Source of the DNA: Martelella alba
Lineage (GTDB): Bacteria > Pseudomonadota > Alphaproteobacteria > Rhizobiales > Rhizobiaceae
NCBI RefSeq assembly: GCF_006516955.1
Contig: NZ_VHLG01000001.1
Location: forward strand, 620,001-684,000
Direction of reading: 5' to 3'
Length of the DNA: 64,000 nucleotides
Under the pieces are notes generated by a model. That model searched no databases. It was not told where the DNA came from and saw only the letters and a list, made by a program, of their open reading frames with translations. Shown piece after piece: positions 11,538 through 19,033 of this stretch (positions are counted from its first letter, which is position 1; every line of letters begins with the position of its first letter). Both the position numbers and the translations under genes were made by a program.

Positions 11538-14500
11538 CTAGACCAACTCAACATCGACAACGCCGTTCACGGTGCGCATAGCCGATGCGACCTCGGGCGA
11601 AAGACGATAGGTACCCGGTAGCTCGATCTCGATCTCACGCCGTCCTTCGGCCTGGATGAGAACGAAAGAAACAAGCCCATCGCCATTGTCATTAAGATAA
11701 CGCGCGAATGAAGCGATCGGGGAGTCCCCCCGGATAAAGACACGCATGGCCTTTTGTTGACGAACAGATTCTTCCTCGAGCGATTGAACAGTCTGAATGC
11801 GCAGACCAATACCCTCAGGCCTCATCTCAGCGGCCACTGTTATGACAACAGACACGCCAGGCTCAAGAAGATCGCGATACTGATAAAGCGCCTCGGAAAA
11901 GAGCACCCCCTCGAACTGGCCCGTGGAATCGGAAAAGGCCACGATACCCATCCGGTTGCCTGTCTTGGTCTTACGCTCCTGACGCCCGACAACGGTACCG
12001 GCAAGCCTCCCCCTGTCAGCTCCATTTTTTACAGACTGCGAAAAATCCGAAAAACTCTGAACACGCATTTTCGCCAACAGGTCCTTATAGGCATCAAGCG
12101 GATGTGCTGTCTGATAATAGCCCAGAACCTGAAATTCCCGCATCAAACGTTCAGAATCCGGCAGCGGTGTGAACTCCGGCAATATGATCTGCTCATCAGC
12201 AACCAGATTGCCGAAGATATCGGCCTGTCCGCTGCGCTTGTCATCCTGGCTACGCTGCGCGAAACCAAGCAACCGGTCCATCCCCGCCAGCAAGGCAGCG
12301 CGCGGCTGTCCAAAACAATCGAGCGCACCAGCACAGATCAGACTTTCGAGAACCCTGCGATTGACCATTTTCGGATCAATACGTCGGCAGAAATCCTCAA
12401 GAGAAGCAAAAGGTCGGTCGCCGCGCATCTCAACGATATGCTCAACCGCAGCATCGCCCACCCCCTTAATGGCCGCCAGAGCATAAAAAATGCAGTTACC
12501 ACCGGTCTCGAAGCGACGAAAGCTGGTTTGCACCGATGGCGCCACCACCTCTATGCCCAACCGTCGGGCGTCATGGCGGAAATCGTTCAGCTTCTCACTG
12601 TTCGCCATATCGAATGTCATGGTTGCAGCAAGGAATTCACAAGGATAATGCGCTTTCAGAAATGCCGTGTGATAGGAAACAATGGCATAGGCGGCGGCGT
12701 GCGATTTGTTGAAGCCATAATTGGCGAATTTGGCCAGCAGGTCGAAGATTTCATCAGCCCGTTTCTTCTGGACACCGCGTTCCACCGCTCCCTCGACAAA
12801 ACGAACACGCTGCTTGTCCATCTGCTCCTTGATCTTCTTGCCCATCGCGCGGCGCAGAAGGTCAGCTTCGCCCAGCGAATAGCCGGATAGCACCTGCGCG
12901 ACCTGCATCACCTGCTCCTGGTAGATGATAACGCCTTGCGTTTCTGCCAGGAGGTGGTCGATCAGAGGGTGAATGGACTCAATCTCTTCCTCACCATGCT
13001 TACGCGCATTATAGACAGGAATATTCTCCATTGGCCCTGGGCGATAGAGTGCCACCAGCGCGATCAGGTCCTCAATCCGGTCCGGCTGCATGCCGATCAG
13101 AGCCTTGCGCATACCCGCGCTTTCAACCTGAAACACACCAACCGTTTCACCACGCGCAAGCATCTCATAGGTTTCGCGGTCGTCGAGCGGAACGGTTGCA
13201 AGATCGATCCGCGTCCCACTTTTGGCGATATAATCCACGGCCGTTTTCAAAACGGTCAGCGTTTTCAAGCCGAGAAAGTCGAACTTCACCAGCCCCGCCT
13301 GCTCAACCCACTTCATATTAAACTGAGTGACCGGCATGTCAGAGCGCGGATCGCGATACATCGGAACAAGACGGGAAAGCGGCCGATCACCAATCACGAT
13401 ACCTGCAGCATGGGTGGAAGCATGTCGATAAAGCCCTTCGATCTTCTGGGCAATAGCGAGCAGACGAGCCACAACTGGCTCCTCCTCAGCGGCCTCCTGC
13501 AACTTGGGTTCATCTTCAATTGCCTTGGAGAGCGGCACGGGCGCTGCGGGATTGTTCGGCACCAATTTACAGATACGATCCACCTGCCCATAAGGCATTT
13601 CCAGCACGCGACCGACATCGCGCAAGGCCGCACGCGCCTGCAGCGAACCGAAAGTGATGATCTGCGCAACCTGCTCGCGGCCATATTTGCGCTGAACATA
13701 ATGAATAACCTCTTCCCGACGCTCTTGGCAGAAGTCGATATCAAAGTCCGGCATCGAGACACGCTCAGGATTGAGGAAGCGCTCGAACAGAAGTGAAAAG
13801 CGCAGCGGATCGACATCCGTAATGGTCAGCGCATAGGCAACCAGCGAGCCAGCACCGGATCCGCGCCCCGGACCGACCGGAATATCGTGCTCCTTTGCCC
13901 ATTTGATAAAGTCAGAAACGATCAGGAAGTACCCTGGAAACTTCATCCCCTCGATGATGTCGAGTTCATATTCCAGTCGCTCAAGATAATCTTCGTGACT
14001 ATGCCCCTTCGACAAGCCGATATGCGCAATCCGGTTCTCAAGCCCCTCACGCGCCTGTCGCCGCAATTCAGCCGCTTCGGCCTTTTCCGCCTCATCAGGA
14101 TGTTCGGAAGCGCCGGTAAATCGCGGAAGGATCGGGCCGCGCGTATCGAGAACGAAGCTGCAGCGCCTGGCGATCTCAACAGTATTGTCCACCGCCTCGG
14201 GCAGATCTTCGAAGAGCGCCACCATCTCCTTCTGGCTCTTCACATAATGATCCGGCGTCAGGCGGAAACGTGTATCGTCAGAGACAATGGCGTTATGAGC
14301 CACCGCCATCAGTGCGTCATGCGCTTCGAAATCATCCCGCGTTGGAAAAAACGCCTCATTGGTTGCCACCACCGGCAATTCATAACGATAAGCCAGTTCC
14401 AGCATATGCCGCTCATGAGCGCGATCATAATTCCCATGGCGCTGTAATTCGACATAAAGCCGATCGCCGAAAATCCGCTTCAACCGCAAAAGGCGCTCTT

Positions 14501-15029
14501 CCGCCCGATCGGCAGCCCCCCCTGCTATCGCCTCATCGACCGGACCACCTGAAGCACCGGTCAAAACGATCAGCCCCTCGCAGAATTCCTCAACCCAGCT
14601 GATTTTCACCGACAGGGCTTCATGTCCAGATCCCGTCAGATAAGCCCGGCTGACAAGCGCCATCAAATTGGCGTAGCCGGCGTCATTGCTGACCAGAAGC
14701 ACTATCGACGGCAGCTTGGCGACGATATGGGGTGCCTTGCGTTCGCCTGCCTCCCCATCCTCCATATCAATCGAAAGCTGGCAACCAAGGATCGGCTGCA
14801 GCCCTTCACCGATTGCCTTTTGCGAAAATTCGAGCGCAGAAAACAGATTATTCGTATCAGTGATGGCAATAGCCGGCTGCTCATCCTTAAGCGCAAGTTT
14901 AAGAACAGACTTAAGAGGCAGCGCCCCCTCTAGCAGCGAATAGGCTGAATGCGTCCGAAGATGGATGAACTGAACCTTGCCGGGTCTTTCAGATTTACTC
15001 ACCAGCTCACTCGTCATTTCCGCCACCAT
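11538..15029 (-). CDS. dnaE: DNA polymerase III alpha subunit (replicative DnaE1)
   Basis: This C-family polymerase is the catalytic subunit of the replicative holoenzyme. The product is 1163 aa from the ATG at 15029, with an alternative ATG at 15017. An N-terminal PHP domain begins at HLRTHSAYSLLEGA (from about residue 24). The palm motif PDFDIDF with two catalytic aspartates lies near residue 425, preceded by GPGRGSGAGSLVAYAL. The helix-hairpin-helix and OB-fold segments follow, the latter around AGTVVGRQERKTKTGNR. Length and content fit DnaE1, not the shorter SOS mutagenesis polymerase DnaE2/ImuC. A LexA-controlled peptide gene lies 97 bp upstream on the same strand, so read-through from an SOS promoter is possible. 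Confidence 0.96.
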   Translation of the reverse strand: MVAEMTSELVSKSERPGKVQFIHLRTHSAYSLLEGALPLKSVLKLALKDEQPAIAITDTNNLFSALEFSQKAIGEGLQPILGCQLSIDMEDGEAGERKAPHIVAKLPSIVLLVSNDAGYANLMALVSRAYLTGSGHEALSVKISWVEEFCEGLIVLTGASGGPVDEAIAGGAADRAEERLLRLKRIFGDRLYVELQRHGNYDRAHERHMLELAYRYELPVVATNEAFFPTRDDFEAHDALMAVAHNAIVSDDTRFRLTPDHYVKSQKEMVALFEDLPEAVDNTVEIARRCSFVLDTRGPILPRFTGASEHPDEAEKAEAAELRRQAREGLENRIAHIGLSKGHSHEDYLERLEYELDIIEGMKFPGYFLIVSDFIKWAKEHDIPVGPGRGSGAGSLVAYALTITDVDPLRFSLLFERFLNPERVSMPDFDIDFCQERREEVIHYVQRKYGREQVAQIITFGSLQARAALRDVGRVLEMPYGQVDRICKLVPNNPAAPVPLSKAIEDEPKLQEAAEEEPVVARLLAIAQKIEGLYRHASTHAAGIVIGDRPLSRLVPMYRDPRSDMPVTQFNMKWVEQAGLVKFDFLGLKTLTVLKTAVDYIAKSGTRIDLATVPLDDRETYEMLARGETVGVFQVESAGMRKALIGMQPDRIEDLIALVALYRPGPMENIPVYNARKHGEEEIESIHPLIDHLLAETQGVIIYQEQVMQVAQVLSGYSLGEADLLRRAMGKKIKEQMDKQRVRFVEGAVERGVQKKRADEIFDLLAKFANYGFNKSHAAAYAIVSYHTAFLKAHYPCEFLAATMTFDMANSEKLNDFRHDARRLGIEVVAPSVQTSFRRFETGGNCIFYALAAIKGVGDAAVEHIVEMRGDRPFASLEDFCRRIDPKMVNRRVLESLICAGALDCFGQPRAALLAGMDRLLGFAQRSQDDKRSGQADIFGNLVADEQIILPEFTPLPDSERLMREFQVLGYYQTAHPLDAYKDLLAKMRVQSFSDFSQSVKNGADRGRLAGTVVGRQERKTKTGNRMGIVAFSDSTGQFEGVLFSEALYQYRDLLEPGVSVVITVAAEMRPEGIGLRIQTVQSLEEESVRQQKAMRVFIRGDSPIASFARYLNDNGDGLVSFVLIQAEGRREIEIELPGTYRLSPEVASAMRTVNGVVDVELV

Positions 15030-15125
15030 TCATCGCCCGACCAATCCACACCAGATTCCTTGCTCGTTATTTAGCCCAGTCGACAAACGGCCCGCAATGA
15101 CGCCGCTGAAAAATCCAGAACAAAT

Positions 15126-15212
15126 TTAGAACGATGCCAGGACAATAGAGACACTCGCAACGAGCAGGGCGATTGAAGTGAAAGCGGCGACATCACGTAG
15201 TAAATCGGTCAT
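15126..15212 (-). CDS. 28-aa LexA-controlled single-pass membrane peptide
   Basis: This short ORF has an ATG at 15212, a near-perfect Shine-Dalgarno AGGAGGG 6 bp upstream and a TAA stop at 15126-15128. It begins MTDLLRD, continues with a roughly 20-residue hydrophobic stretch (from about Val8) and ends VLASF, so it should be a one-pass inner-membrane peptide with a short charged N-terminus. Its promoter carries a LexA box between -35 and -10. The architecture (SOS-induced, under 30 aa, single membrane segment) resembles Caulobacter SidA, a 29-aa division inhibitor acting on FtsW/FtsN. Homology to SidA is not claimed; the functional parallel is an inference. dnaE follows 97 bp downstream. Confidence 0.72.
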   Translation of the reverse strand: MTDLLRDVAAFTSIALLVASVSIVLASF

Positions 15213-15240
15213 CGGACCCTCCTGTTTTGGCTATGTATTA

Positions 15241-15269
15241 TTTATGTTCCCTTTATGTTCTACCGTCAA
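15241..15269 (-). promoter_or_regulatory. SOS promoter: LexA box within a -35/-10 pair
   Basis: On the minus strand, TTGACG (15264-15269) is separated by 17 bp from CATAAA (15241-15246), a good sigma-70-type pair. The direct repeat GTTC-N7-GTTC (plus 15246-15249 and 15257-15260; GAAC-N7-GAAC on minus), the known LexA operator of alphaproteobacteria, fills the spacer and touches the -10. Bound LexA would block RNA polymerase. The transcript start would fall about 20 nt before the ATG at 15212. Confidence 0.8.
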
Positions 15270-16111
15270 TATATTTTTTGGCGATTCCATCCCGGAGAAT
15301 GACAGGATTCTCGATAATGCCGCCGCGTTTCGGATGCAGCTTGCGGGAGAAAAAATATTATCTAACTGTTTTTGTTCCATAATATCAATTCAATCCCAAC
15401 ATGAGCACACGCCGGACAGAGGCTAAGAAAATTCGAACGGCGGCAAACGTCACCGCGACATAGGCGGGCGGCACGCGGACGGACGCAACACATCGAAGCC
15501 CGTATCTCTCGCCCTGGCACGCACTTGGGCACACTGCCCGCCCCGGAGCAGCTTGCGACATGAAAAGGCAGTTCATGGTGTATGGATGAGTAGCTGCCGC
15601 CTCATGCGCACCACCGGAACGGCACCAAAGGGCGCGCCGTCGACAACGGCATTGAATAGGCTCTTATGCACCTCCTAAGCGCGCCAGCCATTCCCTCACC
15701 GGCCCAGCGAACCCATACAACACCACTGTCCTTCCCTGCAGCTTTCCAGGCTGAAACCTTTATGCGCTCTAAAACGCCACGGCAGCACCGTTAGCCAACC
15801 CGCAGTCATGCCGATATGATAAGGTTACAACCCGGATCTGACATGAAACAGGTCAAGTATTCAACTAGAAAGCCGAACAAGCCGCCACGCCAGCACACCC
15901 TCCGTCTGGCGGCTACATTACTGCTCTGACCAGCTTAGTACACCCCGCTCAACCAATCGAAATCAATGCTAGGAATAATCACCCCACAACCTTGGAGAGG
16001 CGGTCGGCACTGAAGCCGTGCAGCATCTTTTTGTCATCATACGCGCGGAAACTTCGTCAAAATATTACAAGTTTATATCCAATATATATTATCAGCCAAC
16101 ACTCCAGACGG
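15270..16111. other. Gene-poor region upstream of the SOS promoter
   Basis: About 840 bp without a supportable gene. A 63-codon minus-strand frame (15385-15576) and a 27-codon plus-strand frame (15299-15382) were weighed and rejected. The composition is uneven and the region could contain decayed mobile DNA, but no intact transposase or terminal repeat was seen. Confidence 0.5.
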
Positions 16112-16141
16112 AAAAACCTGCCCCGGACACGCGGAGCAGGC
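16112..16141 (-). terminator. Rho-independent terminator of the 91-aa orphan gene
   Basis: On the minus strand CCTGCTCCG pairs with CGGGGCAGG (9 bp, one G-U pair) and is followed by TTTTTC. It starts about 24 bp past the stop codon of the small gene at 16165-16440 and supports that gene as a real transcription unit. Confidence 0.8.
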
Positions 16142-16164
16142 TTCTTAAAACAGGAGTCTATACC

Positions 16165-16440
16165 TCAGACATGCTTTTTGGCCCCGTCCTGCCCCTCATA
16201 CTGATCGCGAAAACGATCAATGATGGTCATCAGGGCCTCACGCTTGGATTGGCATGCTGTCTCACGCCCGTATTTCTCGATAAAATCGGCCTGATCGGTC
16301 GTAATGACCGTCGAAAGACTGGTCAGCCCACGTTCCTTGAAAGACCTTCTGAAGTTCCGCATGTAGCGGTTCCATGCGGCACGCTCTTCATCAGAACGCT
16401 CGATTTTTCTCGATCTGCTATCCAGTTCACTATGGCTCAT
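16165..16440 (-). CDS. Small orphan protein, 91 aa, possibly DNA-binding
   Basis: I do not recognise this family. The start is taken at the ATG at 16440 (MSHSELDSRSRK), with GGGGGT about 6 bp upstream; a 15-codon upstream extension is less likely. The product is highly charged and predicted helical, with a basic N-terminal half (RNYMRNF-like, FRRSFKERG) and the segment LTSLSTVITTDQADFIEKYGR. That spacing of a short strand followed by helices is reminiscent of ribbon-helix-helix or antitoxin-like regulators, but this is only a resemblance. It stands alone between AT-rich DNA upstream and its own terminator, in a region that looks acquired. Confidence 0.6.
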   Translation of the reverse strand: MSHSELDSRSRKIERSDEERAAWNRYMRNFRRSFKERGLTSLSTVITTDQADFIEKYGRETACQSKREALMTIIDRFRDQYEGQDGAKKHV

Positions 16441-16920
16441 TCGATACCCCCTATCTAGTTTGAGCGAAATTTCGTCGTTCAACACAGTCCTGTTGCCCGC
16501 GACGCCTCAACTATATTACAATATTCTACAATTTAAAGCAAAAATGGTGACTTTTTTGGGGCGATGTTTACATCATAAACCCAAAATTAACTTATTTATG
16601 CTGAGTAATTACAAGCAAATATAGCTTAGACTATAAATAATACAAAAAAACATTACCTATCGACCGGCAAGCTATCAGCATGCCTCCCCCCGTTTAATCG
16701 TAAGTAAATATTCCTATAAGACGTGTCTTCACTACCAGAAAAACAATTTTGGGTTGATTTCAGCTTGCGCGTCGAGAGACCACACCTTTTCCGTGCTTCA
16801 TTTAGAACAATAACACCTATGGTCGTCTAAACTCTAGCTTTGAGCTTGGGAATTGTTTCCGATCTGGAGAGCCGTACACCAAGGTAGGGTTGCAAAATAT
16901 GGGGGCATAAAGCGGTCAGA
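16441..16920. other. AT-rich gene-free stretch
   Basis: About 480 bp, with 16500-16760 clearly richer in A and T than the flanking chromosome (runs such as TATATTACAATATTCTACAA). It probably includes the promoter of the 91-aa gene. No ORF or known RNA was seen. The base composition suggests horizontally acquired DNA. Confidence 0.5.
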
Positions 16921-16998
16921 TTGCATCCTGTCGACAGTCAGACGTCGGCGAGCACAGCACCTCGACCGTCTTGACGACGGACTAACACTCGGATGCAA
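16921..16998. other. 78-bp cloverleaf-like inverted-repeat element
   Basis: A perfect 8-bp outer stem (TTGCATCC 16921-16928 with GGATGCAA 16991-16998) encloses three hairpins. They are CGAC 16932-16935 with GTCG 16944-16947, CGAG 16949-16952 with CTCG 16961-16964, and CCGTC 16966-16970 with GACGG 16976-16980. Size and branching resemble a tRNA, but there is no TTCRA T-loop or plausible anticodon arm. It lies 33 bp past the lolD stop. It could be an RNA element in the lolD 3' end or a recombination/protein-binding site. Confidence 0.4.
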
Positions 16999-17031
16999 GT
17001 AAATTAGGTCAACAGTCGGTGATTGGCCTGC

Positions 17032-17712
17032 TCAAGCGGCGGCGACAGTGCCATCCTGTAACGTGACGCGTCGGTCCATACGCGCGGCAAGGTCCAGATT
17101 GTGGGTCGCAATCAAGGCGGCAAGACCCGACTGCCGCACCAATGCTTCCAATGCCTCGAACACATATCCGGCCGTACCAGGGTCAAGATTCCCGGTTGGC
17201 TCATCTGCAAGAAGCAGACTCGGTGCATTGGCGACGGCACGCGCAATAGCAACCCGCTGCTGCTCACCGCCTGAAAGTTCCGCCGGACGATGATCGGCGC
17301 GATGACTGATTTTTAGATAATCGAGCATCTGTTCAGCCCGTTCGCTTGCGTCTTTACGTGAAAGACCGGCAATCAACTGAGGCAGCATGATATTCTCAAG
17401 TGCGGAGAATTCCGGCAGCAGATGATGAAACTGATAAACAAAGCCAATGTCATTGCGCCGAAGCGCAGTTCGGCTGTCATCAGAAAGGTCCGCCGCATTG
17501 CGCCCGTTGATGATCACTTCGCCCGCCGTTGGCTGCTCCAACAGCCCGGCGATCTGCAACAAGGTCGACTTGCCTGTACCAGACGGCGCCACCAGCGCCA
17601 CCATTTCGCCAGGCTGCAGGGTAAAATCAGCGCCCTTGAGCACATGAAGCAGGGATTCCCCCTGCCCGTAATCCTGCCGAATGCCCTTCAGGACAAGTGC
17701 CGGTCTGGCCAT
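17032..17712 (-). CDS. lolD: Lipoprotein-releasing ABC transporter ATP-binding protein LolD
   Basis: LolD is the cytoplasmic ATPase of the LolCDE complex, which extracts outer-membrane lipoproteins from the inner membrane. The start is the ATG at 17712 ([10 protein letters not shown]) with AGGTAGG upstream; an alternative ATG at 17739 would overlap lolC. The 226-aa product has Walker A (APSGTGKST), the signature LSGGEQQR, Walker B with [12 protein letters not shown], and the H-loop THNLD. The Walker A first glycine is Ala, as in other LolD/MacB-type ATPases. It follows lolC by 19 bp and is surely co-transcribed with it and proS. Confidence 0.94.
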
Positions 17713-17731
17713 CACGCCTACCTCTTTTTGG

Positions 17732-19033
17732 TTATTCATAACGCAGCGCCTGTACCGGATCGAGGCGCGAGGCCCGCCATGCCGGGAAGATCGTCGCAAT
17801 GAAGGACAGGGTCAGCGCCATGACAACCACGGTCACGGTTTCGCCCCAGCTCATTTCAGCCGGCAGCGTGCTCAGGAAATAGAGCTGCGGATCAAACAGC
17901 ACGGTTCCGGAAATCCAGGAGAAAAACTCGCGGATCGATTCGATATTCAGGCAGACCACCACGCCAAGGATCACACCGGCAAACGTGCCGACCACACCGA
18001 TTGCCGCGCCAGTCATAAAGAAGATCCGCATAATAGCCCCGGACGTCGCCCCCATGGTGCGCAAAATGGCGATGTCTGGCCCTTTATCCTTCACCAGCAT
18101 GATCAGACCGGAAATGATGTTGAGCGCGGCCACGATCACGATGAGCGTCAGGATCATGAACATCACATTCCGCTCGACCTCAAGCGCAGTGAAGAAGGTC
18201 CTGTTGTTCTGACGCCAGTCCGACATCAAAACCTCTTCTCCGGCAGCACTGCGGAGATCGGGAATGACCTGATCGACCTCATCAGGATTTGTCAGAAAAA
18301 CCTCGATACTCTGCACTGTGTCGCCAGCGTTGAAATAGGCCTGCGCCTGCTCCAGCGGCATGAACACGATGGAAGCATCATATTCCGACATGCCGATTTC
18401 GAAAATACCGGAGATCGTATAGGCCTTGACCCGCGGATTGACCCCCATGGGCGTCACATCGCCTTCCGGCGAGATCAGCGTGATCTTGTCCCCGACATAA
18501 AGGCCGAGGCTTGCCGCCATGCGCGAGCCGATCAGAACGCCGCTGCCGGCGGCGTAACCGACCATATCGCCTTCAATGATGTGATCGGAAACCGTGGTGA
18601 GCTTGGTCAGATCCTCCGGCCGGACACCGCGCACCAGCGCGCCCGAACCGGCACCCTGTCTGCCGGAAACCAGCGCCTGCCCTTCGACCAGCGGAAAGGC
18701 AAGCTTCACCCCCTTCACAGCCTCAAGCCGTTTCGACAGGGCATCATAGTCCTTGAAGGGATCACCCGCCGGCAGCACAACCACATGGCCATTGATCCCG
18801 AGAATACGGGTCACAAGCTCGGAGCGGAACCCGTTCATCACCGCCATGACGATGATAAGCGTGGCAACACCCAACATGATGCCGATGAAGGAAAAGCCTG
18901 CAATCACCGAAATGAACGCTTCCTTGCGGCGCGAACGCAGATAGCGCCAGGCCACCATGCGCTCGAACACGGAGAAGGGCCGCGCGGTCGGCGGAAGGTC
19001 AGGCATTGCCTCTTGCGTCTCGGTCGCGGCCAT
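17732..19033 (-). CDS. lolC: Lipoprotein-releasing permease LolC/LolE family
   Basis: This is the inner-membrane subunit of the lipoprotein release complex. The 433-aa product starts at the ATG at 19033 behind GGGAGA. It has the family layout: a cytoplasmic N-terminus with [16 protein letters not shown]1 at [20 protein letters not shown], a periplasmic domain of roughly 230 residues, then three C-terminal TM segments with the FtsX-type core. Only one such gene is present here, as in many alphaproteobacteria where a single LolC/E-type (LolF-like) protein probably forms a homodimer. It lies 16 bp downstream of proS and 19 bp upstream of lolD. Confidence 0.93.

Follow-up and report, generated by a model that had tools for sequence, protein, structure and literature searches.

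A predicted 28-amino-acid membrane peptide encoded upstream of dnaE in Rhizobiaceae, a probable ortholog of the Caulobacter division inhibitor SidA

Division inhibitors and small ORFs near dnaE in earlier work

In Caulobacter crescentus, cell division is inhibited during the SOS response by SidA, a 29-aa inner-membrane peptide that is SOS-induced, contacts FtsW and also interacts with FtsN in two-hybrid assays (PMC4211646). The filamentation of cells without LexA has been ascribed to sidA (PMC12700426), the gene is designated CCNA_02004 (PMC10769358), and a contact of SidA with TM7 of FtsW was predicted in 2026, not with high confidence (PMC13396833). A second damage-induced membrane division inhibitor of Caulobacter, DidA, differs in having 71 aa, being SOS-independent and driven by DriD, and binding FtsN (PMC4211646). 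No description of a rhizobial SidA was found in the literature searched.

The dnaE gene has its own place in the SOS literature. In C. crescentus, where it is designated CC1926 (PMC1839093; CC and CCNA numbers belong to different systems), dnaE was earlier reported to be SOS-regulated and was also recovered by the regulon analysis of PMC3323433, a study of LexA regulons in alphaproteobacteria with several chromosomes, the regulon sections of which make no mention of a small ORF before dnaE. In Sinorhizobium meliloti, sORF25, a small ORF detected by Ribo-seq, lies in the 5′-UTR of dnaE1 and has been named among possible uORFs (PMC10117765). No function is given for it, and LexA, SOS and SidA are absent from the main text of that paper, as far as the text was available.

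The 28-codon ORF, its promoter and their conservation

The window, i.e., the whole 64-kb stretch of Martelella alba DNA that was analysed and to which all plain coordinates refer, carries dnaE on its minus strand (11538..15029, ATG at 15029), recognised as DNA polymerase III alpha by Pfam DNA_pol3_alpha, PHP and finger domains and by TIGR00594 (1192 bits). On the same strand, 96 bp upstream (97 bp in the earlier note, which had the position and strand right), lies an ORF of 28 codons (15126..15212) with its ATG at 15212 and its stop codon TAA at 15128-15126, the product of which, MTDLLRDVAAFTSIALLVASVSIVLASF, contains the single hydrophobic stretch claimed for it. The minus-strand promoter elements reported in that note were all confirmed by re-reading the sequence: a -35 element TTGACG (15264..15269), a -10-like element CATAAA (15241..15246) 17 nt away, and a Shine-Dalgarno sequence AGGAGGG (15217..15223), at the place of which relatives have a purine-rich stretch before the start. 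A LexA-type operator GAAC-N7-GAAC, GAACATAAAGGGAAC (15246..15260, minus strand; GTTC-N7-GTTC when read on the plus strand), lies 48 bp before the ATG, takes up most of the spacer and overlaps CATAAA by one base, the first of that element. The promoter is not listed by a generic sigma-70 scan because CATAAA does not have the final T that the scan requires. Some 1.8 kb separate the ORF from its upstream neighbour, an ABC transporter ATPase (17032..17799, minus strand, Pfam ABC_tran), presumably LolD-like, which is preceded by a MacB/FtsX-type permease (MacB_PCD and FtsX matches in the next ORF) and, beyond both, by a class II tRNA synthetase.

For comparison, 30 dnaE-linked loci were kept from 61 relatives and joined with 80 named loci (the best 80 of 373), among which the nearest relative is Martelella sp. 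HB161492, of the same genus by grouping. Of the 110 loci, 97 entered the count of conservation (L001-L017 and L031-L110, the window included), two genomes occurring twice (L002 = L031, L013 = L044), and the more distant L018-L030 were covered by the separate ORF-plus-box test described below. The start codon was picked by the position of an R-D/E motif, and the stop codon was not chosen. Upstream of dnaE, each of these 97 Rhizobiaceae-level loci carries an ORF that starts with ATG, contains the motif and is exactly 28 codons long, with 79 distinct DNA versions encoding 49 distinct peptides among them; loss of the ORF in close relatives that keep the box, the observation which the earlier note had set against its own proposal, occurs in none of them. 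The ratio pN/pS is 0.36 in frame vs 0.95 and 3.29 in the shifted frames, entropy is highest at codon position 3 (1.26) and lower at positions 1 (0.73) and 2 (0.22), and all three stop codons are in use. Between the window and its nearest species 15 of the 28 codons differ, and just 4 residues. Since the codon-position pattern, the pN/pS values and the variety of stop codons all indicate selection at the protein level, the sequences argue firmly that the ORF is a real gene whose peptide is under purifying selection. Neither Pfam nor NCBIfam matched the window peptide or a Rhizobium peptide searched alongside it, in keeping with a length that is probably too short for standard family models.

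The promoter is conserved together with the ORF. A perfect GAAC-N7-GAAC is found 46-49 bp before the ATG at 80 of the 97 loci and a box with one mismatch at 48-49 bp at the remaining 17, including eight with Neorhizobium names. Among 91 distinct promoter sequences, the TTGAC four bases before the box is retained as T in 91, T in 88, G in 88, A in 79 and C in 77, and the first four positions of CATAAA as C in 91, A in 91, A or T in 89 and A in 88. In most of these promoters the second GAAC is followed at 11 bp by AAAC, a third half-site that is degenerate in the window; its conservation suggests that operators may overlap here. A further feature not mentioned in the earlier note is a second perfect GTTC-N7-GTTC (15118..15132, minus strand) that spans the stop codon of the ORF. 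Of the genus loci examined (L001-L013, L031 and L044), just L001 and the nearest species (L002 = L031) share it in perfect form, within a run of identical bases, and it may represent either chance or a lineage-specific second LexA operator.

The pairing of ORF and box was evaluated with a fixed test, which asks for an ORF that encodes 24-48 aa, including a hydrophobic stretch, and for a box 28-62 bp before its start. With the 80 named Rhizobiaceae loci, 66 passed with a perfect box and all 80 with at most one mismatch, as compared with none and one, respectively, on the reverse strand and with averages of 0.1 and 0.3 over ten dinucleotide shuffles. Over all groups of loci the reverse strands gave no perfect case and one in total with one mismatch, and shuffle means ranged from 0 to 0.3 per group. 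The occurrence of a hydrophobic ORF with a box at the right distance is thus not due to chance.

The motif alone is not rare, with two occurrences of GTTC-N7-GTTC in the window vs 1.66 expected; genome-wide there are 136, vs 96 for the pattern read backwards. Among 100 of the 136 sites, 18 of the more A/T-rich boxes were fetched with their surroundings, and ORFs were scanned beside 10 of them. LexA and UvrA account for two of the ten neighbours, and two more are a polymerase with IMS domains, here called imuB-like, and a protein of the Mg-chelatase/ChlI type, here called comM-like. The remaining six comprise a glyoxalase, a DNA adenine methylase, a radical SAM protein and three ORFs that matched no family. 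The motif thus marks expected SOS genes among chance sites in this genome, which supports its reading as a LexA operator. The consensus of Caulobacter is likewise GTTCN7GTTC (PMC12700426). As a side observation, the radical SAM ORF that adjoins one of these sites (L214:1184-2393) may correspond to splB, which PMC3323433 names as LexA-regulated.

Relation to the Caulobacter peptide and distribution in the class

Caulobacter genomes were recognised by RpoA. The best PDB match of RpoA from the present genome is 7ye1, which we take to be a Caulobacter chain, and this chain is found at 100% identity in four genomes (G278, G297, G331 and G335). MipZ was also considered as a bridge to Caulobacter and rejected, none of its six family matches here (best E 1.4e-9) being taken for MipZ itself. 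Thirty Caulobacteraceae genomes were chosen, 29 of which gave a dnaE match. In the four Caulobacter genomes (L195, L196, L198 and L204) a hydrophobic ORF of 29 aa stands directly upstream of dnaE, preceded by one perfect and two one-mismatch LexA-type boxes. From its length, its box and the locus tag we infer that this ORF is sidA; the literature searched yielded no direct statement of the genomic position of sidA or of the SidA sequence.

When the 49 rhizobial peptides were aligned by hhalign with 25 distinct Caulobacteraceae peptides (from 27 of the 29 loci), the two profiles matched from Met to Met with a probability of 83 and a score of 22.7. The match covers 18 columns and the peptide is short and hydrophobic, for which reason the case for homology leans to a large extent on synteny and the box. 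None of 200 column shuffles scored as well (best 18.4), and the reversed profile scored 6.5. Provided that the Caulobacter ORF is SidA, the likeness to SidA comprises length (28 vs 29 aa), one hydrophobic helix, an R-D/E pair before the helix, a LexA-type box and the place directly upstream of dnaE. In most Caulobacteraceae the peptide has an FVWM-type core and follows several box-like sites in tandem, whereas the rhizobial peptides read MTDxxRDxAAF, contain the tryptophan of that core in 0 of 49 cases and mostly follow one perfect box at 46-49 bp together with a degenerate third half-site. DidA, which is likewise a damage-induced membrane division inhibitor, was rejected as the identity of the window peptide, DidA being about 71 aa long and SOS-independent and the window peptide having 28 aa and a LexA-type box.

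We therefore consider it quite probable that the ORF represents sidA in rhizobia, as an ortholog of the Caulobacter gene, and that its product delays division during SOS. A SidA of about 29 aa with a single transmembrane helix has its counterpart in a peptide of 28 aa with one hydrophobic stretch, a predicted helix; the LexA operator of its promoter has one in the conserved, predicted box at 48 bp; and both homology to the Caulobacter peptide and the position upstream of dnaE are indicated by the alignments and loci described above. The earlier proposal of an SOS-controlled SidA-like peptide thus gains from the conservation of box and promoter and from the homology and synteny with the Caulobacter 29-aa peptide. 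At the level of sequence, the gene, its operator and promoter, their conservation and the relation to the Caulobacter peptide are established; SOS induction, membrane insertion and FtsW/N as the target are presumed for this species. On this reading, the promoter would be kept off by LexA occupying the box, which lies between the -35 and -10 elements. Upon damage, activated RecA would lead to cleavage of LexA and thus to production of the single-helix peptide, which would enter the inner membrane and hold the late divisome (FtsW/FtsI/FtsN) inactive until repair is done. Read-through from this promoter into dnaE, which the earlier note allowed for, may occur as well, no convincing terminator standing between the two. 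The ORF is, then, a concrete candidate for the SOS division stop in rhizobia and some other alphaproteobacteria, and would extend SidA from Caulobacter to a family recognised by position, box and, within or near Rhizobiaceae, by profile.

The ORF-plus-box arrangement at dnaE is found beyond the window family as well, although many alphaproteobacterial genomes do not have it. Of 37 genomes of the family, 27 carry it with a perfect box and 30 when one mismatch is allowed, seven lacking it; the corresponding figures are 10 and 11 of 23 loci from other families of the order (12 lacking it) and 9 and 9 of 30 loci from other orders (21 lacking it), the latter picked by hand mostly from larger genomes. 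In Caulobacteraceae 21 of 29 loci pass with a perfect box and 27 with one mismatch, and one that fails the filter (L185) nevertheless has a 29-aa ORF with two perfect boxes.

Profile searches reach less far. On the present genome, a rhizobial profile that includes the window peptide itself finds that peptide (E 3.1e-11) as the only match at E up to 1. Profile A1, built from 24 peptides, was run on the 61 relatives, 31 of which together gave 32 matches at E up to 1e-3. Of these matches 28 lie 99-583 bp before the dnaE match, many of the peptides being in the profile. In the 24 relatives that belong to the order but not to the family it gave no match at this threshold (best 0.0016, G049). With a wider class profile of 26 peptides (A4), 13 of 142 genomes had a match at E up to 0.05. 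Eight of these matches reach E up to 1e-3, all 79-289 bp before the dnaE match, and the other five (E 0.0026 to 0.043) are away from dnaE. Four of the eight, in G063, G069, G123 and G199, are absent from the profile, G063 and G199 belonging to one genus and G123 having a congener in the profile; TTGACA and perfect boxes accompany the peptides of G063, G123 and G199, and the G069 peptide (L121) has a perfect box and a GTG start. Of the nine other-order loci passing the ORF-plus-box test, five (L113, L119, L127, L163 and L167) go unrecognised by the class-wide profile, which leaves the layout as the one sign of kinship there.

Alternative explanations and copies away from dnaE

In two genomes, G027 (L225, C1:2976676) and G019 (L226, C25:223008), the peptide is encoded away from dnaE with a perfect box at 48 bp and TTGAC ahead of it, while the stretch before dnaE in the same genomes fails the ORF-plus-box test. 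These relocated copies represent the box-ORF unit occurring without dnaE. Because the promoter and box move with the peptide, the peptide is not simply a leader of dnaE, and the box serves the peptide.

An alternative worth weighing is that of an SOS membrane toxin comparable to TisB or DinQ, which would depolarise the membrane and slow growth without the divisome as its target. Both E. coli peptides are small SOS-induced membrane peptides, and size class and LexA control match TisB. Neither of them is known to be linked to dnaE. DinQ, too, is an SOS-regulated single-transmembrane peptide (PMC3567139). The homology and shared position with the dnaE-linked peptide of Caulobacter count against a toxin. 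As weak evidence, no Rfam family that could represent an antisense RNA partner reaches its gathering score in 14900-17800, and a generic scan lists no opposite-strand promoter-like site within about 500 bp upstream of the ORF, the nearest starting at 15792. We regard this explanation as unlikely.

Even less probable in our judgement is that the ORF is a leader (uORF) tuning dnaE, with the box being there for dnaE. It would fit the naming of sORF25 among possible uORFs (PMC10117765), the listing of C. crescentus dnaE as SOS-regulated (PMC3323433) and the finding of no convincing terminator between the 28-aa ORF and dnaE. A leader peptide would, however, be expected always in cis to dnaE, which is not the case in the two genomes with relocated TTGAC-box-ORF units; box-free relatives of the peptide occur in prophage-like regions (see below), and the peptide sequence is conserved, yet its distance from stop codon to dnaE anchor varies from 133 to 392 nt. 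The C. crescentus dnaE box of PMC3323433 is presumably the box discussed here, and dnaE was probably listed as LexA-controlled on account of the box of the peptide, so that the box which regulon work assigned to dnaE acquires an alternative owner. Likewise, sORF25, a translated small ORF in the dnaE1 5′-UTR and thus in the place of the window peptide, is most likely the same gene and would gain a possible function.

A damage-induced accessory subunit of some other membrane complex is about as improbable, or slightly more so. Many small single-helix proteins are subunits of this kind; against this, LexA-type control is conserved, and the sole homologous system of known function is a division inhibitor, if the Caulobacter ORF is SidA (PMC4211646). 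Lastly, a chance ORF behind a LexA box serving dnaE alone can be practically dismissed, short ORFs being common (137 of at least 20 aa overlap 10 kb) but this one showing a coding pattern, conservation at 97 of 97 loci, relocated copies, class-wide profile matches at dnaE and an association with the box that the controls do not reproduce.

No box stands within 200 bp of the other SidA-like copies unlinked to dnaE, which are a second copy in G028 (L224/L230, C27:37437), one in G020 (L227/L231, C37:51337) and two weaker ones in G003 (E 0.018; L228, L229 and L232, C17:50531 and C18:27258). Ten neighbouring ORFs in all were scanned against PHROGs. Exonuclease VIII and RecT-like genes adjoin the G028 copy (2 of 3 ORFs scanned), an HNH endonuclease gene is near that of G020 (1 of 3), and Mu-type transposition and ParB-like genes adjoin those of G003, where the matches concern contig C17 only (transposase, DNA transposition protein, ParB-like protein and alcohol dehydrogenase; 4 of 4). 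Among the ORFs searched with the wider profile, the G028 peptide (E 6e-10) and the G003 C17 peptide (7e-8) were recovered, and the G020 peptide was left unsupported (0.038). Judging from these neighbourhoods, the G028 and G003 copies look prophage-borne, that of G020 less surely so, and the box-free copies may possibly act as phage division blockers. Tentatively, and with rather less than even confidence, we suggest that SidA-type peptides are an old, widespread SOS division checkpoint of alphaproteobacteria, located before dnaE and mistaken for dnaE regulation, of which temperate phages captured LexA-free copies as division blockers beside recombination or Mu-type transposition genes.

Among the peptides searched against PHROGs, the Caulobacter one alone gave a match, a weak one (E 0.26). 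Two prophage peptides found no counterpart in phage records by tblastn, a weak search with the low-complexity filter on. When viral contigs were scanned with an alignment of the Rhizobium type, 91 pattern matches came up, none of which was confirmed. Among the ORFs searched in RR1-B, RcapMu and RcWaterboi, three Mu-like phages covered over their first 14 kb, none reached the inclusion threshold of the profile. The two Mu-like Rhodobacter phages, RcapMu and RcWaterboi, each contain a hydrophobic ORF of 44 aa (L234:3888-4022 and L235:2543-2677), which, without a profile match, shows a comparable layout in that it sits between early regulator and ParB-like genes.
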